The position numbers and the translations under genes are program-made. Below the pieces are notes generated by a model that was given only the letters and a program-made list of their open reading frames with translations, did not search any database and was not told the origin of the DNA. From NCBI RefSeq assembly GCF_000981225.1, contig NZ_LAJC01000025.1, positions 1 to 64,000 on the forward strand: a stretch of DNA of 64,000 nucleotides. The letters are read 5' to 3'. Shown in pieces: positions 5,143-24,650 of the stretch (position 1 is its first letter; every line of letters begins with the position of its first letter). Source of the DNA: Allosalinactinospora lopnorensis (GTDB lineage: Bacteria; Actinomycetota; Actinomycetes; Streptosporangiales; Streptosporangiaceae).

Positions 5143-5405
5143 TATTAGGTCTCGCCCTTCTCGGCCCACCACAAACCCGCCCTTTCGCGCCGGCCCTTTG
5201 CCCCCGGCCGGCTTTTCCGCCATATGCGTCCCCAGCCCTGCTCCGGTGCCGCGGGCCGGGCCCGGCGACCCTGCGGCGAGCGGCGCCTGTCTCACGGGCT
5301 GAGAAGCTCCCTTGCAGGTAGGCCTACCCCCGATGGAAAACCGGACACGCTGTCGGTTAAAGTGACCAACGGATCTTCACTGGAGTCGAACACAACCGCA
5401 TATTG

Positions 5406-5546
5406 CTCATCCAGAGGGGTGGAGGGACCGGCCCTGCGAAGCCCCGGCAACCATCTCGGCATGCGTTTCTCGCGGCACCTGCGAGGCGGCCGAGGCAGGT
5501 GCCAACTCCGGCCTGGAGTCAGATCGGCTCTGAGGGAAGATGAGGG
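5406..5546 (+). promoter_or_regulatory. SAM-I (S-box) riboswitch
   Basis: The S-box signature is clear: AGAGGGGTGGAGGGACCGGC, then GAAGCCCCGGCAACC (5438-5452), then AGGTGCCAACTCC (5497-5509). P1 closes by pairing CTCATC (5406-5411) with GATGAG (5539-5544). The candidate ribosome-binding site GAGGGGAGA (5542-5550) overlaps the 3' strand of P1, and no separate terminator hairpin fits before the ATG at 5559. Repression of translation when SAM is bound is therefore the likely mechanism (inference). Methionine/SAM supply controls the downstream genes. Confidence 0.93.
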
Positions 5547-15538: not shown

Positions 15539-15601
15539 CTACACGGATTCCTCGGCGCAATCGAGGCGTGCCACGCCGGTGATGCGGTGTACGGCGAACC
15601 G
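15539..15601 (-). pseudogene. Displaced original 3' end of the helicase-associated gene (24666-27138)
   Basis: On the minus strand this 63-base segment reads RFAVHRITGVARLDCAEESV and stop. The functional gene on the other side of the element ends RFAVHRISGVAEIA. The first 17 bases, CGGTGTACGGCGAACCG on the plus strand, are identical in both places. This is what remains of the uninterrupted gene's end after the element integrated. Confidence 0.85.
15585..15601. repeat. attL core
   Basis: CGGTGTACGGCGAACCG is identical to 24694-24710. The host sequence lies to its left. Confidence 0.85.
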
Positions 15602-15704: not shown

Positions 15705-15727
15705 ATGTGCGCCCGATGTGCGCCGCA
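15705..15727. repeat. Integrase arm-type repeat, left copy
   Basis: A 23-bp sequence made of two direct ATGTGCGCC units separated by CG and followed by GCA. It is identical to 24616-24638 and lies about 100 bp inside the left core, as expected for integrase arm sites (inference). Confidence 0.65.
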
Positions 15728-15799
15728 CGGCGCACCGGTTAGTGCCTGCTAGCCGTTGTCCCCCGGGCGGGGTACGCTTACGACGGTTCTGGTACAACG

Positions 15800-15827
15800 A
15801 AGGCCCCGGCTACCATGCCGGGGCCTT
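15800..15827 (-). terminator. Terminator after the DUF397 gene
   Basis: AAGGCCCCGGC (15800-15810) and GCCGGGGCCTT (15817-15827) form an 11-bp perfect stem with a six-base loop, 16 bases past the DUF397 stop on the minus strand. The rest of 15429-15842 holds the attL region and no gene. Confidence 0.75.
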
Positions 15828-15842
15828 CGCTATGGGAGCGGT

Positions 15843-16046
15843 CTACAGTTCGCCAGTCCTGACAGCCTCCACCAATGCCGCCCACTCAACGGAGGGGAAG
15901 GCGAGGTGACCGGCGTCGGGACGAGTGGAGTCCCGAACGGCCGAAACTCCGGGCGCGTCAGCGACCTCTACGCACTCGTTCCGCGTAGCGCTGTAGCTGC
16001 TCTTACGGAAACCGAACTTCGGGTTCTGGTGGTTCTGGTACATCAC
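15843..16046 (-). CDS. DUF397 domain-containing protein (element-borne)
   Basis: This 67-residue protein has the DUF397 pattern FRKSSYSATRNECVEVADAPG, RDSTRP and FPSVEWAALVEAVRTGEL. These proteins are usually encoded next to XRE/DUF5753 regulators, as here with a nine-base gap, and some such pairs act in signalling or development in Streptomyces. A second pair occurs at 53863-55039. This copy lies inside the integrated element. Confidence 0.88.
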   Translation of the reverse strand: MMYQNHQNPKFGFRKSSYSATRNECVEVADAPGVSAVRDSTRPDAGHLAFPSVEWAALVEAVRTGEL

Positions 16047-16055
16047 GGTTCTTCC

Positions 16056-16907
16056 CTACTCATACCTCTTGATCAGGTCGGCCATACGGGCCGTTGAGGC
16101 TTCCGGATGATCCGCTCTGACACGGATGTCGTCCCATGCCTCCCGGTAGATCTCCACCAATGGTTCCTCCTCGTGATACAGACCATCGGTCCGGGTCTCG
16201 AAATACACGATCGACGGGTCGATCGGGTCCGGGAAATCCAGGATCGTGAACGGGCCGGTGATGCCGGGATGCAGGCCCCGCCCGAGCGGGAGCACCTGGA
16301 TTCGGATGGTGTTGGGTTCCTCTGAGAGGTGGACAAGCTTCTCAAGCTGGGCCCGCATGACGTCCTTATCACCTGCGGGACGCAGTAGTACCGCTTCGTC
16401 GACGACGGCCCACAGCTTCGGCGCATCCTCCCGGTCAAGGACCTCTTGCCGTTCCATCCGGGCGGCGACCGCGCGCTCTGTGGCGTGAGAATCGTGTTGG
16501 TGTACGGCCCGATCGGAGGCAGCGGCATACTCCGGCGTTTGGAGTAGGCCAGGCACGACCATCGTCTGATAGGTCGAGATCACCGACGCCTCAGCCTCGA
16601 ATCCGACGTAAGAATCGGTGATCACGTCGTCATAGCGCGACCACCATCCCTTCTCACGGCTTTGGCGTGCCAGCGTTACAAGAGCCTCGGTCACCTCGTC
16701 AGAGGCGCCGTACAGCTTGGCGAGCGCGCGGACGATCACGCTGTCGGGCCGCTTCCACTTGTTCAGCTCCATGTTCGTGAGCCGACCACGCGACCATCCC
16801 AGCCGTTCGCCGACTTGTTCGGCCGTGAGCCCCGACGCCTCCCGCAAGCGTTTCAATTCGGCAGACAGCCGACGTCGCCGGACGGTCGGGCTGTATCTGT
16901 CCGCCAC
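16056..16907 (-). CDS. XRE-type helix-turn-helix regulator with DUF5753 (element-borne)
   Basis: This 283-residue protein has an N-terminal HTH (RLREASGLTAEQVGERLGWS) and a DUF5753 domain recognised by MVVPGLLQTPEYA, RQEVLDREDAPKLWAVVDEA and LPLGRGLHPGITGPFTILDF. It starts at GTG 16907. It pairs with the downstream DUF397 gene. Its direction is opposite to the operon that begins at 17099, so it may set the state of the element's left half (inference). Confidence 0.9.
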   Translation of the reverse strand: MADRYSPTVRRRRLSAELKRLREASGLTAEQVGERLGWSRGRLTNMELNKWKRPDSVIVRALAKLYGASDEVTEALVTLARQSREKGWWSRYDDVITDSYVGFEAEASVISTYQTMVVPGLLQTPEYAAASDRAVHQHDSHATERAVAARMERQEVLDREDAPKLWAVVDEAVLLRPAGDKDVMRAQLEKLVHLSEEPNTIRIQVLPLGRGLHPGITGPFTILDFPDPIDPSIVYFETRTDGLYHEEEPLVEIYREAWDDIRVRADHPEASTARMADLIKRYE

Positions 16908-17016
16908 GGTCCGCGCTCCCTGCTTTCGATTTCGGCGTTTCCCTCTTGCGGCGATGGTAGATCACTCCCCTCACAAGGTTTTTGAGGGCAGCATCCCATC
17001 GATCCAAAACTTTGTA

Positions 17017-17045
17017 TTGAAAGTTCGGCGGATTGTGGCCACTAT
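17017..17045 (+). promoter_or_regulatory. Putative promoter of the 17099-18081 operon
   Basis: TTGAAA at 17017-17022 and CACTAT at 17040-17045 are separated by 17 bases. A start near 17052 would give a leader of about 45 bases. The match is moderate. Confidence 0.4.
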
Positions 17046-17098
17046 GGGACCTACCAGAACCACGCGGCCTAACCAGCCGCCGACCCCCAGGGGTTCGT

Positions 17099-17427
17099 AT
17101 GCATCTCCTCTATCTGCTCCTGATCCCGCTCGCTGCGTTGCTCGCGCCGGCCCGTCGCCCCGGTCGCCACGCGCGCGGCCATCGCCCGGAACCGGCTCCC
17201 CTCCCCGCGGCCTCTGAGGTGCCCTGTGCGGCCCGTGTCCGCCCTTACGCGCCGGTCCCCCGTGCACCGAACCGCCCCCGGCCCATGACGTGGCGCACCG
17301 GGCCGCCATGGTGCGGCCGTACCTGGTGGCCGCTGAGCGCCAGCGCGCGCAGGCGCGCGTCGACCGTGACCGGCTCGGTCTGGCCGTCCTTATGGACATC
17401 GCGCACACGGCGGAGGTGGCACGGTGA
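17099..17427 (+). CDS. Element-borne hypothetical protein, frame broken once
   Basis: The N-terminal frame has a hydrophobic stretch (HLLYLLLIPLAALLAP) and Pro/Arg-rich sequence. After about residue 53 the coding signal moves to another frame, which reads VAHRAAMVRPYLVAAERQRA and LAVLMDIAHTAEVAR to a stop at 17425-17427. That tail resembles small proteins of Streptomyces pSAM2-like integrative elements as I remember them. One added base in a C-run (17257-17261 or 17275-17279) joins them into 109 residues. The stop overlaps the next start (GTGA). Function is unknown. Confidence 0.55.
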
Positions 17428-17720
17428 GCACCAACATCATCGAAACGGCTCTGCGGGACTACTTCCGCGACGCGCCCACCAGCGGTGATCTGGCGAAGCT
17501 CCGCACGGCGCGGCGCCGTATCGCCGAGGCGAAGGCGCGTATCGCCGACGTCGCCGACCACCTCCGCGACTCCGAGCGGCGCGACCCCGACACCGGCGAT
17601 CACCCGCTCACCGACGACGGCGCGGCACTGGTCGCCCTGCAGATCGACACCGACCGGCTCCTCGGCCGCCTTGACGAGATCATCGGGTCTGCGGCGAACC
17701 GGGCGGAGGTGGACCGGTGA
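17424..17720 (+). CDS. Element-borne hypothetical helical protein
   Basis: This 98-residue, highly charged protein is mostly helical (AKLRTARRRIAEAKARIADV) and could form a coiled coil. No family is recognised. It starts at GTG 17424 overlapping the previous stop, and its own stop overlaps the next start, so translation is probably coupled through this operon. Confidence 0.65.
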   Translation: MSTNIIETALRDYFRDAPTSGDLAKLRTARRRIAEAKARIADVADHLRDSERRDPDTGDHPLTDDGAALVALQIDTDRLLGRLDEIIGSAANRAEVDR

Positions 17721-17914
17721 ACGACATCGACCCGGACCTGTACGTCCAGACCCAAGAAGCCGCTGAGATCCTGAACATCGCGCCTTCCACGATGCGCCAA
17801 TGGGCACGCGCCGGACGCATCCGCTACCTGCGCAACCCCAAAACCGGATGGCGCCTGTTCAGGGCCGGAGACGTCTACGCGCTGCGCGACTCCCGACAGG
17901 AGGCGCAGCAATGA
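17717..17914 (+). CDS. MerR-like helix-turn-helix protein (excisionase/regulator type)
   Basis: This 65-residue protein reads YVQTQEAAEILNIAPSTMRQ, WARAGRIRYLRNPKTGWRLF and RAGDVYALRDS. That is the winged HTH of excisionase and MerR-like proteins of integrative elements. It starts at GTG 17717 overlapping the previous stop. A second excisionase-like gene sits near the integrase (22691), so this one may be a regulator rather than the recombination directionality factor. Confidence 0.75.
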   Translation: MNDIDPDLYVQTQEAAEILNIAPSTMRQWARAGRIRYLRNPKTGWRLFRAGDVYALRDSRQEAQQ

Positions 17915-18081
17915 TGGACCTGACCCCTCACGAACGCCGCGAGCTGAAAGACCTCACCGAGCAACTGATCGAGGCCACCAACAACAACACCTACTGGCTG
18001 AACCAGGTACGCGAGACCTCCATTGAGCTACGCGACCGGCTCAACGCCTGGCTCGACGACGACCAGGAGCCAGACACCTAG
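17911..18081 (+). CDS. Element-borne small hypothetical protein
   Basis: This 56-residue acidic, helical protein (ERRELKDLTEQLIEATNNNT) starts at ATG 17911, overlapping the previous stop (ATGA), with AGGAGG seven bases upstream. It is the last gene of the left operon, followed 98 bases later by a strong terminator. No family recognised. Confidence 0.65.
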   Translation: MMDLTPHERRELKDLTEQLIEATNNNTYWLNQVRETSIELRDRLNAWLDDDQEPDT

Positions 18082-18179
18082 AACCCCGCGCGCCTCCTAC
18101 CCCGTCCAGATCCCGGGGGAGGCGCGCGGCCCAACCGCCGCCCGGCCCCCTCACTCCCTCGGAGACCGGGCGGCACCGG

Positions 18180-18213
18180 CCCCCGCCGAACCGTCCTTCG
18201 GCGGGGGTCTTCT
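18180..18213 (+). terminator. Rho-independent terminator of the left operon
   Basis: CCCCCGCCGAA (18180-18190) pairs with TTCGGCGGGGG (18197-18207) around CCGTCC, followed by TCTTCT. Confidence 0.85.
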
Positions 18214-18239
18214 CATGTCTAAGATGCAGGTGGGGAAGG

Positions 18240-18483
18240 GTACGCCCCGCGCGGGACCGGACACGCGGGTTACAACTAGTTGTAACCTGCCTGAGTCGCG
18301 GTACGCCCCGCGCGGGAAAGTTCACGCGTACTCCGGCAGGGTGCAAGTACTTGCACCCTGCGTACGCCCCGCGCGGGACCGGACACTCAGAGCAAACCAC
18401 TACTGCAGATCTGCAGCCGCAGGTCCGCCCCGTGCGCGGTGGCCAGTGGCCAGCGTCTTACCCGGAAAGCTTTGGCCACTCCG
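18240..18483. repeat. Four tandem 61-bp repeats, each with a different palindrome
   Basis: Units start at 18240, 18301, 18362 and 18423, exactly 61 bp apart. The first 17 bases of units 1-3 are identical (GTACGCCCCGCGCGGGA); unit 4 begins GTCCGCCCCGTGCGCGG. The second half of each unit holds its own palindrome: GGTTACAACTAGTTGTAACC (18268-18287), a perfect 26-bp palindrome centred on AGTACT (18336-18361), CTGCAGATCTGCAG (18403-18416), and in unit 4 AGTGGCCA/TGGCCACT arms around AAAGCTTT. A fifth, diverged unit starts at 18502. No ORF with convincing codon use crosses the array. Confidence 0.9.
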
Positions 18484-18501
18484 CCCCCGCTCGTCGTCGC
18501 G

Positions 18502-18546
18502 GTCCGGCCCCGTGCGCGGGGAGAAACGGTTTTCGGCGCCGTTTCC
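18502..18546. repeat. Diverged fifth copy of the array unit
   Basis: GTCCGGCCCCGTGCGCGG at 18502 resembles the start of unit 4, and GAAACGG (18522-18528) with CCGTTTC (18539-18545) forms a stem, but it is 79 bp from the start of unit 4 rather than 61. Confidence 0.6.
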
Positions 18547-18589
18547 CGCGGCCCTCTGCAAACGCGCAGGTCAGGGAGAAAAATCACCA

Positions 18590-19260
18590 GGGGTGCGGCG
18601 GGGTCGGTGGGCTGTCGCGTTTTCGCAGGTCACCGGGCCCCCGGGGGTGGTGGGGGTGCCGCCTGGGGGTGGGTGACCCCGTGCCTCCGGGTGTGCGCCG
18701 TGGTGGTGCGCGGTGTGAGGGGTGCTGCTCTGGGCGCGTGCCCTTGCGGGCGTGCTGCGCTGCGGGCTGGTCCAGGTGTCCGGCGTCGGACATCTCGGGG
18801 ATGTGCGTGAGGTATCGGCTGCTGTCCTGGTCGCTCGCCTTGATCGTGTGCTTCGCTTCGTGTCGTCGAGAGTTGTTCGTCGTCGAGCTCGACGTTGTTC
18901 GTCGTCGTTGTCGAGGTTGGTTTGGCGCGCGGCGTCGAGGTGGTTCGTTCGCTCGTTGGCGCTGGTTGTCGTCGAGGCGCGGCGGTCGTCGAGGGTGAGC
19001 TGGTGTTGGTCGGCATCATCCGGCGGACGGACGGGAGCGCAGCGCTGAGAGTGTGCGTGCGGCGTGCGCGTGCATCGGTTGGTGTTGGCGCGTCGCTTGC
19101 TCGTGTGCGGCGCGTTGTCGGCGTTCTGAGCGCGTTTCTGTGTTCGCTGTCGAGTTCGTGCTGATCGTTGCAGGCGAGTGAGCGTGAGGGGTGAGCGTGG
19201 CCTGGTCTGGGGTGGGGTGCTGGGGTGGCGGGGATGGTGGGGTGCCTACGCTCCGGGTGC
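18590..19260. other. GT-skewed non-coding stretch inside the element
   Basis: The plus strand here is strikingly rich in G and T and poor in A and C, with repeated short words such as GTCGTCGAG and GTTCGTCGTCG at 18865-19005. Minus-strand frames are open but give low-complexity Pro/Thr/Arg/His sequence with poor third-position GC bias. I cannot support a gene here. It lies between the left-operon terminator and the capsid-gene terminator. Confidence 0.5.
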
Positions 19261-19323
19261 CCGCGAAAGCACCCCGGCCCGTTTGGTGGTGCCCGCCACC
19301 AGTAGGGCCCCGGGGGGAGTGAC

Positions 19324-19387
19324 GACCCCCCGGGGGGTCGGGTGCCGCTGGCCGTGCCCAGGGGAGGCGCCCCGCGGCCAGCGGCAC
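19324..19387 (-). terminator. Terminator structure after the capsid gene
   Basis: GTGCCGCTGGCCG (19342-19354) and CGGCCAGCGGCAC (19375-19387) form a perfect 13-bp stem five bases past the capsid stop. A separate 16-bp palindrome, GACCCCCCGGGGGGTC, lies at 19324-19339. Confidence 0.75.
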
Positions 19388-19391
19388 GTCT

Positions 19392-20783
19392 TTAGGCTGA
19401 CACGTTCAGCAGAACGAATGCCGAGTCGTTGACGGAGTCGGCCCCGGTGCGCGCCCAGAGCAAGGCGCCCCGCTGCCCGGTCGGCCGCTGGTTGGCTCCC
19501 ACCAAGTTCGGGATCAATTCGAGTTGCGCGCCGATCCGGTCGACGATCACGAAGTTGGAGAAGTCGCCGTAGAGGAGGACTTTCTCTCCCGCGGTTTCGT
19601 GGTCGCCGGACATGTTCGACAGTTCGTTGAGCGGTTTCCGCAACAGCCGGTCATCTGCGATTCCTGGGAAGACCTTGCTTCCGTTGGCGGTTTCCTCTTG
19701 GCTCAGATGGTTGATTACCGCGATGTTGGCGGCCCATTGGGCATTCATGGAGAACCGGGCCGGTAGCGCGCTCTGCGTCGCGAAAACGTCCTCTGCCGCG
19801 AGGGTGGCCGCGGTTGCGGTGTCGACCTCGGAGGAGGTTCCGGTCAACGCGGTCACGATCCCGGTGGGTTGGCCGGTTCCGCTGCCCGTTGTGAACGCGG
19901 TTGCGTGGAGCTGCGCCAGCCCGTCCACGAGAAGCCGCTGTAGTTCCTGCATGAAGTTCACGGCGTCCATTCCCACCTCGAAACTGAAGGGAACGAACGC
20001 ATCCCCGAAGTGCACCGGAATGTTGGGCTGTTCCAGGGTCGGACTCGCGTCGGCGACTTCGGCGTGTTCGGATTTCCATTCCGCGGTCACGCCAGCGGAG
20101 GAAACGCCGTTCCACTCGCTTGATGCGACCTGAACGACCCGGGAGATCTCCCGGAGCGGGTTGTTGGAACCGTCCGAGGTGAGGATAATCGCCGGATCCA
20201 AGTGCATGGGCACCATGTGCCCGCCGCCTGCGCCGGTTCCGATCTCCATTTGCCGCATTTCGGACTGGAAATGGGCGACCCGGCGATAGGCTTCCTGCTC
20301 CTGCGGTTCCCACAGCAGATGCCCGCGCGTCGGGTCGGCGACCAGTGTCGCGAATGCCCGCGCATAGGCCGGGTCCCCGGTGGCGATGGCCCAGCGCGCG
20401 GCCACGGTTTGGGCGTAGGCCGGGCCGTCCCGCAAAAGCTTCTCGACACGCTGCGCGCCGTGGTCGGGGAGTTCGCCGGAGCGCGCGGCGGTGTCCACGT
20501 TCCGCATGGCCTGGTCGCGCAGCGCGGCGAGTGGCCCGTTGGTGGTGCGCGTGGGAGCGGCCCCATCGGGGTCGTAGTGGTGGGTGCCGTGCTCGGTGCG
20601 CAGATCCCCGCTGCCGTGGCCGGCGGCGTGCTGGCTGAGCCGGTGCAGCGTCGAGGAGCGATCAAACGCCCGGGTCAGCTCATCAAGCCGGGCCTCATCG
20701 GCCGCGGTGAGCTTCGCCTTGTTCTCCAGAGCTTCGAGTTCGCGCTGGATACGGCGCATGTCGTTGATCGGTGAGAAAGCCAT
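19392..20783 (-). CDS. HK97-type phage major capsid protein
   Basis: This 463-residue protein has a helical, charged N-terminal region (1 to about 180) and an HK97-fold body. Typical capsid features include NPLREISRVVQVASSEWNGV, PVHFGDAFVPFSFEVGMDAV, the helix NFMQELQRLLVDGLAQLHAT followed by TGSGTGQPTGIVTAL, KVLLYGDFSNFVIVDRIGAQ and LLWARTGADSVNDSAFVLLN. It forms icosahedral shells. No prohead protease, portal or terminase is adjacent, which is unusual for a prophage and typical of some satellites. ATG 20783 has only a weak ribosome-binding site. Confidence 0.9.
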   Translation of the reverse strand: MAFSPINDMRRIQRELEALENKAKLTAADEARLDELTRAFDRSSTLHRLSQHAAGHGSGDLRTEHGTHHYDPDGAAPTRTTNGPLAALRDQAMRNVDTAARSGELPDHGAQRVEKLLRDGPAYAQTVAARWAIATGDPAYARAFATLVADPTRGHLLWEPQEQEAYRRVAHFQSEMRQMEIGTGAGGGHMVPMHLDPAIILTSDGSNNPLREISRVVQVASSEWNGVSSAGVTAEWKSEHAEVADASPTLEQPNIPVHFGDAFVPFSFEVGMDAVNFMQELQRLLVDGLAQLHATAFTTGSGTGQPTGIVTALTGTSSEVDTATAATLAAEDVFATQSALPARFSMNAQWAANIAVINHLSQEETANGSKVFPGIADDRLLRKPLNELSNMSGDHETAGEKVLLYGDFSNFVIVDRIGAQLELIPNLVGANQRPTGQRGALLWARTGADSVNDSAFVLLNVSA

Positions 20784-20815
20784 GGTTCACCCGTCCTGTG
20801 TCGCGATTCGGGACG

Positions 20816-20917
20816 GGTGCCCTTGCTCGGGCGGCGCGTCCGCTAGCTTCAGCGGGTGCCCTGTGGCGGGCGGCGCGCTGGCGGCCACCTCCGCTAGGTG
20901 CCCTGTGGCGGGCGGCG
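20816..20917. repeat. Three imperfect ~40-bp repeats upstream of the capsid gene
   Basis: Copies start at 20816, 20855 and 20897. The last two share GGTGCCCTGTGGCGGGCGGC; the first reads GGTGCCCTTGCTCGGGCGGC. The first two are followed by CCGCTAG. They lie between the capsid start and the upstream operon, possibly in its control region. Confidence 0.7.
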
Positions 20918-20960
20918 TAGCGGAGCGGCCTATCCATCGAAGGAGGCAGAGCCTCACCTC

Positions 20961-21164
20961 TCAGGATACCCGGTGGATAACCACACCGTTCGGTGCGCTG
21001 ATCACGCTGCCATCGGTCGGGATGCACCGGGCCGCCCACGGACAGGTAGCCGCGTGCTTCACGACCACCACAAGCACCGCTGCCCCGGTGAGGGGACTCT
21101 GGCCACGCGACACCGCGAGGTCGGCCGGGCAGTCCTCACACGCCAGTTCGGCGAGATCGGTCAT
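20961..21164 (-). CDS. Small cysteine-containing protein (element-borne)
   Basis: This 67-residue protein has CEDC near its N-terminus and CPWAARC near residues 41-47, a possible four-cysteine zinc site. The start ATG 21164 overlaps the stop of the ATPase gene (ATGA), so it is translationally coupled to it. Function is unknown. Confidence 0.7.
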   Translation of the reverse strand: MTDLAELACEDCPADLAVSRGQSPLTGAAVLVVVVKHAATCPWAARCIPTDGSVISAPNGVVIHRVS

Positions 21165-22381
21165 CGCTCCCCCTGGGTTCCGAATCGGTTCACGCAGTAC
21201 CAGCCGCGGCATGGTTTGATCAGGCGGCCGGACTCTTCTAGGCGCGTAAGGTACTTGCGGGCGTTCTCTCCGAACTTCTCGACAACGTCCGCGGTGCGTA
21301 CGCCTTCGGTGCGTTCGCCGACGAATTCGAGGATTGCCGCGCTGGTCTCGCCGAGATCCCCCTGTTCCTCGCGGCGCCGCGCCGTCTCGGCGGACTCGGC
21401 GAGGGTGGCACCGTCCAGCGTCCATGTTCCGCCGCGCAACCGCAGGGCGTACTCGGCTTCGACCACATCGCGGCCGGTCACCTTGAGCAGGGCGTCTTGA
21501 GCCTGCCGCTTGCGGGCCAGGACAACGATGGTGTCGGCGGCCCCTGCGAGACCGTGAGTGCCGCTGACGCTGTCTACGAAGTCATCCGAGGTGGCCTTGC
21601 GGTCGTGGTGCAGCACAGTCACAGCAAGGCCGGGATGCTCGTCTGCGATGCCCTTCAGCGCGGCCCCCACCCTGTAGTCACGCTGGTAGGCGGACTCCCC
21701 CTGTAGGGCGGTCGGCATCACCCGCCCCAACGTGTCCACCACGACCAACGCCGTGTCGGGGTAGCGCTCAACGAACGCCGTGATCGTCGCGAGGATGGTC
21801 CCGGGCTGTACGCGGGTGATGTAGCAGAACCTCTCGGGGATCGAGGCGTCTGACAGCAGTTGGCGGCAACGGTCCTGCATCCTCCTGTCCCCGTCCTCCA
21901 ATGCGCAGTAGAGGACACGGCGCGGAGCACCTACGGGGATCGCGCCCAGGGCTCGGCCCCCCGCGGCGACCGCGAGCAACAGATCAAGGGCAAGCCAGGA
22001 CTTACCAGCTTTGGGCGGCCCCACTAGGAGCGCGAACCCTTCCGGGACGAGCCCGTCCACGGCGTAGACCAGCGGCGGGAACTCTTGGGAGTCCAGCCAC
22101 GCGCCGGTGCGGAGGTCCGCGAGGAGGTTGTTCCCGCCGTCTCCCGAACGGGTGTCACTACCGTCCCGAGTGTCACTTTCCCTGGTCACAGGGGTATCTG
22201 AGTTCGGGGTAGTGTCACTTTCAGATGTATCTGCCTCATCACTTTCCGTGGTAGTGACACTCGGGACACTTGTGACAGGGAGAGGGGTAGAGCACCGCGC
22301 GGAGCATTCGGCGCGAACCTCGTCCGCGATGTGCGGCGGGTCGGTGGGCATTACCACGTGGGTACTGGTCGGGCACGTCAC
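21161..22381 (-). CDS. RepA-like AAA family ATPase (element replication)
   Basis: After about 85 low-complexity Ser/Thr/Asp-rich residues comes a RecA-fold ATPase: Walker A LLVGPPKAGKSWLALDLLLA, LYCALEDGDRRMQDR, Walker B ALVVVDTLGRV, and VTVLHHDRK with GTHGLAGAADTIVVL. The C-terminal 70 residues look like a winged helix. This matches hexameric RepA-type helicases of plasmids and phage satellites. GTG 22381 overlaps the previous stop and follows GGGAGGT. It probably drives replication of the excised element (inference). Confidence 0.85.
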   Translation of the reverse strand: MTCPTSTHVVMPTDPPHIADEVRAECSARCSTPLPVTSVPSVTTTESDEADTSESDTTPNSDTPVTRESDTRDGSDTRSGDGGNNLLADLRTGAWLDSQEFPPLVYAVDGLVPEGFALLVGPPKAGKSWLALDLLLAVAAGGRALGAIPVGAPRRVLYCALEDGDRRMQDRCRQLLSDASIPERFCYITRVQPGTILATITAFVERYPDTALVVVDTLGRVMPTALQGESAYQRDYRVGAALKGIADEHPGLAVTVLHHDRKATSDDFVDSVSGTHGLAGAADTIVVLARKRQAQDALLKVTGRDVVEAEYALRLRGGTWTLDGATLAESAETARRREEQGDLGETSAAILEFVGERTEGVRTADVVEKFGENARKYLTRLEESGRLIKPCRGWYCVNRFGTQGER

Positions 22382-22647
22382 GCCGCTACCTCCCGCCGCT
22401 CGAATGAAGCCCAGCGGTATTTGTCCGGGGTGAGCCGGACGGGCGGCGGACACTCCAATGCCGGGTCACGGTGCCAGTCCGGGCACCTCGGACACGGGAT
22501 GGGGGGAAGGCGTAGTGCAGCCTCACGGCGACGCTGGAAGCGGTCGTTGTCCTCGCATACCCTGGCGTCAGATCCAGCCGTCGCCCGGTGTGTGATCTCT
22601 TCCGGCCCGTCGTTGCCCGCGGCGGGCCGTTCGTTTCTCGGGACCAT
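22378..22647 (-). CDS. Element-borne hypothetical protein with zinc-finger-like motif
   Basis: This 89-residue basic protein contains CPRCPDWHRDPALEC, which could bind zinc. It is the first gene of a three-gene overlapping operon with the ATPase and the small cysteine protein. No family recognised. Confidence 0.65.
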   Translation of the reverse strand: MVPRNERPAAGNDGPEEITHRATAGSDARVCEDNDRFQRRREAALRLPPIPCPRCPDWHRDPALECPPPVRLTPDKYRWASFERREVAA

Positions 22648-22690
22648 CCCGAACTCCTCTCAGTCGTTCGGGTCACCGGAATCGGGACGG

Positions 22691-22879
22691 TCAGGCAGCG
22701 TCGCCGGACTGCTGGTCGAGCCATTTTTCGATGTCTGACCAGCGGTAGCGGATGTGGCGGCCGACACGGCGCCACTTCGGGCCGATCTGGCGATACCGCC
22801 ACATGGCCAACGTCTTCATCGGGATCTTGAGGTACTCCGCGACCTCGGCAGGGTCCGCCAGTGATGCTTGCGGTTTCAT
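22691..22879 (-). CDS. Excisionase / DNA-binding winged HTH protein
   Basis: This 62-residue protein reads DPAEVAEYLKIPMKTLAMWR and VGRHIRYRWSDIEKWLDQQ, the helix-turn-helix-17/excisionase pattern. ATG 22879 follows GGGGGAAC. Its position divergent from the repressor-integrase pair, with operators between, is typical of a recombination directionality factor whose expression is held off by the repressor. Confidence 0.85.
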   Translation of the reverse strand: MKPQASLADPAEVAEYLKIPMKTLAMWRYRQIGPKWRRVGRHIRYRWSDIEKWLDQQSGDAA

Positions 22880-22899
22880 CGTTCCCCCATCATCATGAC

Positions 22900-22918
22900 G
22901 TGTTCCTTAAAAGAACAC
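22900..22918. promoter_or_regulatory. Repressor operator O1 (excisionase side)
   Basis: GTGTTCCTTAAAAGAACAC is an inverted repeat, TGTTC-N7-GAACA, 21 bases before the excisionase start. The same half-sites and spacing recur at 22988-23004. Confidence 0.65.
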
Positions 22919-22987
22919 CGTGAGATGCAAGTGGCTCACTTCGTCTCAGAGTGCCCCACTCTTGCGCGTTCCGCAAGCACTAGCTAA

Positions 22988-23004
22988 TGTTCTCCTATGG
23001 AACA
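22988..23004. promoter_or_regulatory. Repressor operator O2 and leaderless promoter of the XRE gene
   Basis: TGTTC-N7-GAACA covers the ATG (22997) of the XRE gene. TTGCGC (22962-22967), 17 bases, then TAATGT (22985-22990) would start the transcript at about the ATG itself. There is no Shine-Dalgarno sequence, so the mRNA is probably leaderless and self-repressed. Confidence 0.6.
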
Positions 23005-23449
23005 AGAACCAATGAGTCCCGTTGAGAACATCGGGAAGCGCGTCAAGCAGGTACGACTGCGCCAGGACATGACTGCCGAAGACGTCGCGCGAGAGCTTCG
23101 GAAACAGGGGGTGCCCTGGGAGCGCGCCACCGTCGCCAAGTTGGAGAACGGGCACCGGGCCAGCATCACGGTTACCGAGTGGCTAGCCCTCGCCTACGTC
23201 CTGTCGGTCAGTCCTCTGCACATCCTCGTGCCGCTCGACGACGATGCCCCGTTCCGGCTCACGCCCAACCGCGAGATTTCCGCGCTGGGCGCGCGCCGAT
23301 TCATCCGCGGTTTCCATCACCTTCCAGGGATGGACTGGCGCGCGTTCCTGACGGAGGTGCCGGACTCCGAGGTCATTGTGTCCGAAGGAAAGACGGGCGA
23401 GTGGACCATACGCCCAGCAGAGGAGGATGACGAAATTGCCGGTCGTTGA
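22997..23449 (+). CDS. XRE family repressor of the element
   Basis: This 150-residue protein has an N-terminal HTH (KRVKQVRLRQDMTAEDVARE, ATVAKLENGHRASITVTEWL) and an acidic C-terminal part. It is divergent from the excisionase and overlaps the integrase gene by 14 bases. It is the likely master repressor that keeps excision and replication genes silent, acting at the two TGTTC-N7-GAACA sites (inference). Confidence 0.88.
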   Translation: MEQEPMSPVENIGKRVKQVRLRQDMTAEDVARELRKQGVPWERATVAKLENGHRASITVTEWLALAYVLSVSPLHILVPLDDDAPFRLTPNREISALGARRFIRGFHHLPGMDWRAFLTEVPDSEVIVSEGKTGEWTIRPAEEDDEIAGR

Positions 23450-24650
23450 TCTCTGGCACCAGATGGAGAAGCAGCCGGACGGCTCGAAGAAGAAGGTCCG
23501 GTCCGCCAAGTACGGGCGCGGGAAGCGCTGGGCGGCCCGGTGCCGCGATAACAACGGCGACCAGAAGTCACCCACGTTCAAGACCAAGGCGGAAGCCGAG
23601 AACCACCTGAAGAACGTCGAGGGTGACCTGGTCCGCGGTCAGTACGTCAACCCCGCGGCCGGGAAGGTCACCTTCCGGGACTACGCGGAGCAGTGGCGGC
23701 GCAACGCGCTACATCGACCGTCCACTGCGGAGCGGGTAGAGCGCGCTTTGCGGAACCACATTTACCCCAAGCTCGGCAACCAGCGAATGTCGATGATCCG
23801 GCCGTCCCACATTCAAGCCTGGGTGAGCGGGCTTCAGGGCAGGCTCGCCCCGTCGACGATCCGCGCCTACTACGGGGACGTAGCCGCGATCTTCACGACC
23901 GCGGTCCGGGATGACGTCATCGCGCGTACCCCGTGCCGCGGGATCAAACTCCCCGAGGTGAGCGGAAAGAAGAAGCCAGTGATGCCAGTGGAGCAGGTTG
24001 CAGCGATCCGCGCCGCTCTCCCGGAACAGTTTCGTGCGGTGATCGACTTGGCCGCCGGCTCTGGGTTACGGCAGGGTGAGATGTTCGGCCTTGAGGTTCG
24101 CCACGTCGATTTCTTGCGGCGTGTGCTCACGGTGGAGCAGCAGCTATCGGAGCGGCCGGGGGAACGGGCGCGGGTGGTCCCGCCGAAGACGGACGCCTCC
24201 TACCGGGAGATCCCGCTTACGGAGCGCACCACGGACGTTCTGGCCGCTCACCTTGCGCAGTACCCGGCCGTTGAACTCGAAGTCGAGGACGCGACGGATC
24301 CGGACAACGTCCATACCCGCACCGCGGCGTTCGTGTTCACCACGCAGGCGCACCGGCCGGTGCGCCGAATGGAGTGGTCACGCATCCTCGCACCGGCAAT
24401 GAAGGCGGCCGGTTTGCCCAAACGATCCGGGCTGCATGCGATACGGCGGTTTTATGCCTCTTTGCTGATCCGTTACGGCGAGTCGGTGAAGACCGTTCAG
24501 GAGCGCATGGGGCACAGTTCAGCGGCAACCACGCTCGATACCTATGCCGGGTTGTGGCCGGACAGTGAGGATCGGACGCGCGAGGCGGTAGACGCCGGAC
24601 TTGCTGAACTTGACGATGTGCGCCCGATGTGCGCCGCAGAAGAGGGGTAG
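23436..24650 (+). CDS. Tyrosine-type site-specific integrase
   Basis: This 404-residue tyrosine recombinase has an AP2-like DNA-binding N-terminus, a SAM-like core-binding domain (VTFRDYAEQWRRNALHRPST), and a catalytic domain: Arg in GSGLRQGEMFGLEVRHVDF, the HAIRRFYASLLI box, GHSSAATTLDTYAGL with the nucleophilic Tyr. TTG 23436 is chosen because AGGAGG ends nine bases before it; ATG 23427 has the same site pressed against it. The last codons contain the right arm-type repeat, and the right core follows 43 bases after the stop. Confidence 0.95.
   Translation: MPVVDLWHQMEKQPDGSKKKVRSAKYGRGKRWAARCRDNNGDQKSPTFKTKAEAENHLKNVEGDLVRGQYVNPAAGKVTFRDYAEQWRRNALHRPSTAERVERALRNHIYPKLGNQRMSMIRPSHIQAWVSGLQGRLAPSTIRAYYGDVAAIFTTAVRDDVIARTPCRGIKLPEVSGKKKPVMPVEQVAAIRAALPEQFRAVIDLAAGSGLRQGEMFGLEVRHVDFLRRVLTVEQQLSERPGERARVVPPKTDASYREIPLTERTTDVLAAHLAQYPAVELEVEDATDPDNVHTRTAAFVFTTQAHRPVRRMEWSRILAPAMKAAGLPKRSGLHAIRRFYASLLIRYGESVKTVQERMGHSSAATTLDTYAGLWPDSEDRTREAVDAGLAELDDVRPMCAAEEG
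24616..24638. repeat. Integrase arm-type repeat, right copy
   Basis: Identical over 23 bp to 15705-15727 (two direct ATGTGCGCC units). It lies within the last codons of the integrase gene, 55 bp from the right core. Confidence 0.65.

Follow-up and report, generated by a model that had tools for sequence, protein, structure and literature searches.

A tandem array of differing palindromes in a satellite-like element of Allosalinactinospora lopnorensis, a possible bank of sites for ParB-like proteins

The element and its palindrome array

The window, that is, the whole stretch of 64,000 nucleotides of Allosalinactinospora lopnorensis DNA that was analysed (contig NZ_LAJC01000025.1, positions 1 to 64,000), contains an element of ~8.9 kb with genes for an integrase, an AAA_25 protein, HTH proteins and a phage capsid protein (Table 1). 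The boundary drawn here rests on an exact 23-bp direct repeat, whose right copy falls within the 3' end of the integrase gene. An outer direct repeat of 17 bp (at 15585 and 24694) encloses this pair, and either of the two pairs may represent the attachment core. The scan of the element proteins recognised no further gene for head, portal, terminase or tail, and found neither a cas family nor a ParB-like gene nor TraB. With an integrase, few phage genes and an incomplete virion set, the element is satellite-like as predicted from its genes. A SAM riboswitch (RF00162, 69.6 bits) was detected at 5404-5546 on the forward strand of the window, outside the element.

Table 1. Predicted features of the integrated element and units of the palindrome array (window coordinates)
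Feature	Position	Strand	Remarks
Integrated element	15705-24638		exact 23-bp direct repeat at 15705-15727 and 24616-24638
DUF397 protein	15843-16046	-	Pfam
XRE/DUF5753 regulator	16056-16907	-	Pfam
Three small genes	17424-18081	+	Pfam: 98 aa (no family), HTH_17/MerR-like 65 aa (17717-17914), 56 aa (no family)
Terminator-like GC-rich stem-loop, then T-rich stretch	18180-18215	+	by eye; absent from consensus-scan matches
Array unit 1	18240-18300	+	flank, then 20-bp perfect palindrome GGTTACAACTAGTTGTAACC at 18268-18287
Array unit 2	18301-18361	+	flank, then 26-bp perfect palindrome at 18336-18361
Array unit 3	18362-18422	+	flank, then 14-bp perfect palindrome CTGCAGATCTGCAG at 18403-18416
Array unit 4	18423-18501	+	start +61; looser flank GTCCGCCCCGTGCGCGG; 8-bp-arm hairpin 18445-18480, arms AGTGGCCA (18445-18452) and TGGCCACT (18473-18480)
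Array unit 5, irregular	18502-18570 (end approximate)	+	start +79; flank GTCCGGCCCCGTGCGCGG; hairpin GAAACGG-9-CCGTTTC, 7-bp arms, 18523-18545
G-/T-rich stretch, apparently non-coding	18571-19391		between array and capsid gene; coding check reached 18640; 18-bp palindrome at 19323-19340
HK97-type major capsid protein (Phage_capsid)	19392-20783	-	Pfam 8.6e-36; PHROG major head protein
AAA_25 protein, likely replication	21161-22453	-	Pfam 1.2e-25; weaker PHROG matches to primase and helicase families
HTH_17 protein, excisionase-like	22691-22879	-	Pfam, PHROG
XRE-type regulator	22997-23449	+	PHROG, Pfam
Tyrosine integrase	23376-24650	+	PHROG, Pfam

On one side of the array are the small genes (end 18081) and the terminator-like stem-loop; on the other, the convergent capsid gene ends at 19392. 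It consists of three units of 61 bp, a diverged fourth and an irregular fifth (18240-18570). Exact copies of the flank GTACGCCCCGCGCGGGA start at 18240, 18301 and 18362, at a step of 61 bp; this period extends over units 1-4, and the flank is identical over 17 bp in three units only. The preliminary description, made from the sequence alone, had reported four units at 61-bp spacing in a mobile element, with perfect palindromes of 20, 26 and 14 bp and a hairpin with 8-bp arms. All of this is present, and the mobile element is the satellite-like one described above; the irregular fifth unit at 18502 had been missed.

None of 2000 dinucleotide shuffles of 18240-18560 attained the observed values for the sum of palindromes (42), the length of the longest one (26) or the number of those of at least 14 bp (three). 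When 321-bp segments were taken in 50-bp steps, at least two palindromes of at least 14 bp were found in the surroundings of the array only. The G+C content of the array is flat over the three codon positions (0.68-0.73), compared to 0.67/0.48/0.82 in the capsid gene, and by this measure the stretch is non-coding. A decaying or coding repeat was rejected on the basis of the shuffle test and the flat codon-position G+C. Folding as single-stranded DNA gave z values of -1.84, -4.55, 0.02, -1.32 and 0.07 for units 1-5; unit 2 is the only window unit that folds clearly better than its own shuffles.

In the own genome, the flank GTACGCCCCGCGCGGGA matched 61 times on the forward and 47 times on the reverse strand at ≤3 mismatches, compared to 46 and 52 matches of a backwards control, and the other places listed all had at least 2 mismatches. 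Neither palindrome 1 nor the inner 18 bp of palindrome 2 has a second copy in this genome at ≤3 mismatches; one backwards-read control pattern of the palindrome scan gave 10 matches on each strand. A host regulon, or decoys for a host regulator, is therefore disfavoured, and the decoy reading was rejected because the sites of units 1 and 2 are unique in the genome. The array had no match in phage records. Its exact flank gave three matches in viral contigs, which were judged to be chance. Against plasmids, the three best matches (E 8e-3 to 0.09) were korB/ParB genes aligned to 18473-18520; they were judged to be chance matches of GC-rich coding repeats from the one that was read, and the coincidence with ParB is noted. 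The corresponding best E values for the arrays of two related elements (L206 and L040, see below) were 0.4 and 0.2. No description of arrays of this kind was found in the open-access literature on intragenic parB palindromes or palindromic spacers, and we do not claim membership in any known family.

Arrays in related elements

Tandem arrays with 61-64-bp spacing, a GC-rich flank and differing palindromes of ~20-30 nt were found in five further elements (L040, L083, L086, L206 and L097). A sixth relative (L084) has a single flank copy and palindromes. Four loci occur in the collections under a second label (L083=L136, L086=L124, L084=L123, L206=L143). Named hosts are Actinomadura (L083, L084), Streptosporangium (L086) and Acidipropionibacterium jensenii (L206/L143). 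A search for the flank in relatives had been proposed at the outset: the exact flank pair is missing from the other 340 of 341 family genomes, and between elements the flank is conserved loosely. As for the palindromes, they differ and are intact in these elements as in the window. This agrees with the claim of the preliminary description that palindromy is kept and sequence is changed, and neither of the two outcomes it had named against itself (random decay without palindromes in relatives, or a coding array) was seen.

Relatives were collected through two genes of the element. At E 1e-30, 29 of 341 family genomes, among them the own one, have a relative of the capsid. Script scans covered stretches from 17 of the remaining 28 (L039-L055), and L040 and L051 were also read. 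A clear array was found in L040 alone, with 61-bp spacing, the flank GTGCGGCCCGTGCGGACGGGGGGACAGGC and differing hairpins; L051 has hairpins without a flank, and the others were judged by script. Coupling of the array to the capsid gene was rejected on this count (clear in 1 of 17 capsid relatives). The window capsid by itself had no relative among viral and genome contigs, and L206 also has a capsid gene.

AAA_25 relatives are present in 40 of 341 family genomes (own included), to which the best 80 of 316 genome loci, mostly from actinobacteria, and 18 viral loci were added. Direct repeats 40-109 bp apart were scanned in the AAA_25 loci (family, other genomes, viral), L040 and the window. The counts peaked at 61 bp with 18 hits, 14 of which are arrays of this kind (9 without repeated loci), namely those of the window, L040, L083 (L136) and L206 (L143). 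Perfect 18-of-18 matches at 61 bp belonged to these arrays in 11 of 12 cases, the exception being L172. The L086 (L124) array appears at 62 bp, and L206 additionally at 62 and 64 bp. Other spacings with high counts (42, 72, 45 and 54) are multiples of three, as coding repeats would give. The viral contig L097, with flank copies 61, 63 and 62 bp apart by hand count, was discovered via its flank and is therefore not an unbiased case. Most other AAA_25 loci have no array within the stretches scanned; since the collections were scanned with exact or degenerate patterns, the frequency of arrays is a lower bound. L088 and L085 show hairpin clusters without a clear flank repeat and were excluded from the six relatives.

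Several of these elements carry other genes and repeats. Proteins of more than 1000 aa are encoded by the AAA_25 elements of L083 (13355-16552), L086 (13391-16837) and L088 (12719-17177); those of L083 and L086 have an NlpC/P60 domain and look tape-measure-like by eye. L088, related and without a clear array, encodes a small terminase. The L083, L086 and L088 elements are possible satellites that alter the tail or packaging of a helper. A core like GTCCGACTGTCCG or its reverse complement recurs at 63-64-bp spacing in L157, L158, L160 and L161 near 10930, in L094 (211 and 10288) and in L091 (9121), mostly directly behind the AAA_25 match; these repeats are candidate iterons. Three near-identical palindromes GCACTTTCCCGGGAAAGTGC are located in L125 (3220-3320) of Amycolatopsis marina.

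Palindromes shared with and contained in parB-like genes

The array palindromes are mostly 19-32 nt long (extremes 14 and 54) with centres of 0-9 nt, and some of them recur elsewhere. A 23-nt palindrome, GCTTCGTCCAACTTGGACGAAGC, is identical in the L040 array and in the parB-like gene of L095, a 69-kb viral contig. Among 341 family genomes, two have its 19-bp core, with a single copy each in the L040 array and the L083 element. In family genomes and viral contigs, TTCGTCCAACTTGGACGAA was found in the L040 array, the L083 element and two viral contigs; in L095 it is part of the parB-like gene, and in L096 it follows a capsid-like gene. The L083 copy sits just before the array in a relic of a parB-like gene, which shares 67% identity with L095 over 79 aa and has an internal stop. 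The core CCAACTTGG is likewise common to L040 and the L083 gene relic. An open stretch after this relic, with the GGCAGATCTGCC-centred palindrome GGTGGCAGATCTGCCACC, is possibly a second parB-like relic; it matches no Pfam family and lacks relatives in phage records, and against this link the 12-mer GGCAGATCTGCC also occurs in a coding-looking stretch of L213. The firm link from arrays to parB is one palindrome type only.

For the window itself, no palindrome was found in parB-like genes. The core GCAGATCTGC of unit 3 recurs in L086 (twice), in L084 and inside an L097 flank copy. The 16-bp cores of units 1 and 2 matched 5 and 11 stretches in viral contigs, respectively. Ten of these 16 loci were inspected and all lie outside parB-like genes by eye, several of them in one phage in which the unit 2 core recurs. 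We judged these matches to be unrelated, and they lend no support to a bank of ParB sites. In one phage, GTGCAAGTACTTGCAC is present in many copies (L240-L248; viral contigs 3300009514_000019 and 3300009537), in the copies inspected mostly at gene borders by eye, and is perhaps the operator of a phage regulator.

The parB-like genes were then inspected for palindromes of their own. In 14 of 15 genes the best palindrome is located at the same linker behind the N-terminal part (12/13 when the near-identical L267-L269 are taken as one, 14/20 when five more distant hits are added). These palindromes (L095, L229-L234, L257, L258, L264, L265 and L267-L269) span 18-29 nt and are perfect or near-perfect. 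The genes stem from Mycobacterium, Staphylococcus, Pseudomonas and Vibrio phages, from Streptomyces and Microbacterium plasmid records, from viral contigs and from family genomes; further parB-like queries in phage records mostly returned the same phages. ParB_N was found by Pfam in 4 of 4 of these genes tested, and in the Mycobacterium phage gene a helix-turn-helix is annotated behind the linker. L229 has a second hairpin with a 7-nt loop and equal score. The five distant hits, L259-L263 (29-32% identity, partial), have no linker palindrome and stand outside the count of 15; by eye, L259-L261 are ParB-methylase-like proteins.

The position of the linker palindrome is constant and its sequence variable, and the differing arms stay complementary. 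Between close relatives both arms are changed, as in TTCGTCCAA/TTGGACGAA, TTCCGCCAA/TTGGCGGAA and CTCGTCCAA/TTGGACGAG. Shuffling of synonymous codons (60 shuffles per gene) produced a palindrome as good as or better than the observed one at least once in 5 of 10 genes, and the case for intragenic palindromes therefore rests on the shared position and the paired arm changes. We infer that ParB-like proteins bind the palindromes in their own genes, that the window palindromes are of the same class as the ParB-linked one, and that the element gains from them. If this reading is right, the DNA target of such a protein can be read from its own gene.

A possible bank of binding sites and alternative explanations

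Taken as a whole, the array is most readily read as a bank of sites, comparable to a centromere or to operators, for ParB-like proteins that differ in specificity, a tentative reading to which we give a probability of roughly 0.4. A bank of dimer sites is favoured because the array palindrome of one relative (L040) matches a palindrome inside a phage parB-like gene. The array would be a cis-acting site cluster of the element, with a constant flank that keeps the units in register, about six helical turns apart. Each palindrome is a predicted binding site of a site-specific, dimeric ParB-like (or similar) DNA-binding protein, and the palindromes would differ since each serves a protein of another specificity. 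Such proteins are probably encoded by plasmids, prophages or helper phages in the same cell; by binding them, the element would be able to borrow, sense or titrate them for maintenance, replication control or packaging. The preliminary description had suggested selection for hairpin or dimer-binding structure. Its dimer-site half leads through the L040/parB palindrome, and its hairpin half does not hold in general (z -1.32 to 0.07 for units 3-5). Against a bank of sites, several array hairpins have centres of 4-9 nt, which is less typical of dimer sites, and the centromere arrays known to us have one identical site in every copy. More doubtful is the wider proposal that actinobacterial satellite-like elements keep a bank of several specificities, each site derived from, or fitted to, the palindrome within the gene of a different ParB-like protein, by which several helpers would be recruited or sensed and which would change unit by unit. 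If it is right, a stock of several recognition sites could make a phage parasite compatible with a number of helpers.

Parts of this arrangement are known from other systems. A parS site lies within spo0J, and sopC of plasmid F is a tandem centromere bound by ParB with an inverted repeat in each repeat. Direct-repeat parS-like cis elements bound by ParB are described for Deinococcus (PMC7671480). The window array resembles such tandem centromeres in its tandem repeats in non-coding DNA and the inverted repeat in each. Unlike in these, where the copies share one site, the window palindromes differ per unit, and the window element lacks a recognised ParB gene. The nearest published parallel is SpdA2 of the Streptomyces plasmid pIJ101, which binds a palindrome (sps) inside its own gene; loss affects segregational stability (PMC4170104). 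As an actinobacterial mobile-element protein with an intragenic palindrome it represents the principle proposed here for parB-like genes. However, sps is one conserved 12-bp palindrome, usually in 2-3 copies, in contrast to a bank of different ones, and SpdA2 is not called ParB-like in the passages of PMC4170104 used here. With respect to the carrier, the satellites of Streptomyces phages in the Mulch/Flayer systems, with their own capsid gene (and a tyrosine integrase in the case of MulchRoom), are likewise small actinobacterial satellite genomes. They differ in having terminase and portal genes as well and no known primases, and palindromes are not mentioned in the main text (PMC10690885).

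Three other functions have to be weighed against a bank of ParB sites. In an origin of replication or a transfer site, the flanks would be iterons for AAA_25/Prim-Pol replication (or clt-like), and priming would start from palindromes extruded as single-strand hairpins. In favour, the arrays are located in non-coding DNA, several of them adjoin a small GntR-type gene (L040 by Pfam; L083, L086 and L084 by eye), and single-strand folding is strong in window unit 2 (see above) and the first L040 unit (z -3.70). AAA_25 and an integrase co-occur in 4 of 6 relatives (L083, L086, L084 and L206), a count that is biased because these four were found through AAA_25. However, most AAA_25 loci scanned have no such array in the stretches covered, the window AAA_25 has no tblastn match in L040, and units 3 and 5 do not fold better than shuffled sequence. 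The lack of TraB among the element proteins scanned speaks against a clt-type transfer site; near the L097 array there is an FtsK/SpoIIIE-like protein just below the Pfam cut-off. On balance, we regard an origin or transfer site as unlikely. A structured RNA array, in which transcribed units with a small GC hairpin and a variable hairpin would act as regulatory or scaffold RNA, is rather improbable. By eye, flanks of different elements do keep a short GC stem with changed bases (CCC-GCGC-GGG, CCCGT-gcgg-ACGGG, GCCCG-cgca-CGGGC), but the stem is lost in the second L086 flank copy. No Rfam family reached the gathering score in the window, L206, L040 and L097 arrays, no sigma-70-type promoter matched in 17900-19450 (a search that covers high-GC promoters poorly), the array lies between convergent genes, and several units fold weakly. 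Smaller still is the chance of a bank of packaging sites, in which every palindrome would imitate the pac-type site recognised by a different helper phage. The elements are satellite-like, with capsid genes in the window, L040 and L206 and the small terminase in L088, and in L233 the parB-like gene is the second gene behind that for the terminase large subunit. ParB-domain methylases are also reported upstream of terminase genes in Paracoccus phages, and a suggested packaging role is cited (PMC6536676). In four other annotated phages, however, the parB-like gene is in the early region near repressor genes, and in a Vibrio phage it is near neither terminase nor repressor genes. Were the array only an origin or an RNA, a recurrent 61-64-bp design with changing palindromes across several actinobacterial genera would still need explaining.

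A likeness to CRISPR had been dismissed at the outset. In substance this stands: the longest palindrome among 21 real spacers of the own genome is 8 bp, compared to 14-26 bp in array units 1-3. The likeness of period and flank to type I-E had been overlooked. The array shares with type I-E CRISPR and with RNA anti-CRISPRs (Racr) a 61-bp period, a GC hairpin in the repeat and an intergenic position in a mobile element. Type I-E arrays have near-identical repeats of 28-29 bp at this period; here units 1-4 follow the period, and exact identity of the flank covers 17 bp in three units. A Racr is defined by a solitary repeat with 90% identity or more to a CRISPR repeat (PMC10651486). The array differs from this in having several units with palindromes as spacers and a repeat that is no close copy of any of the ten real ones compared. 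An ordinary type I-E array was rejected on account of weak model scores and palindromic spacers; no cas genes were found next to the array among the element proteins scanned.

Degenerate repeats derived from CRISPR are known from CreA. A CRISPR mimic that extends the RNA anti-CRISPRs is also conceivable, in which degenerate type I-E repeats with self-complementary spacers would occupy Cas6e/Cascade of the host without guiding it. Two contigs of the own genome (G000), C4 and C7, carry type I-E arrays of the same 61-bp period with different repeats, and both have a Cas6e gene; the window is on C25. When 14 array repeats were compared with nine real I-E repeats, 8 came nearer to one of these than 95% of their own shuffles did, without correction and with shuffling that destroys the hairpin. 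In A. jensenii, the repeat of the array is similar to that of the host in reverse complement (p 0.017 and 0.117 for two copies), and 9 of 39 weak hits of the real-repeat model in eight loci fall in arrays. However, in the covariance model built from ten real repeats, array units reach ≤12.8 bits (E 0.33) and window units ≤11.8, and the best hit of the model lies outside the arrays and is tRNA-like by eye. Furthermore, no Cas6e match was found in the array-bearing hosts G301, G280 and G274, nor in G309; G301 has one leftover CRISPR repeat pair. The real spacers, with their short palindromes, also speak against a mimic, which we regard as improbable; a bank of sites for ParB-like proteins remains our preferred reading.

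Outside the elements compared here, a stretch (L276, 1500-1545) within a CRISPR-like array near cas3 on a Streptomyces anulatus plasmid resembles the L040 flank with 81% over 42 nt (E 0.5), which is probably a chance likeness.
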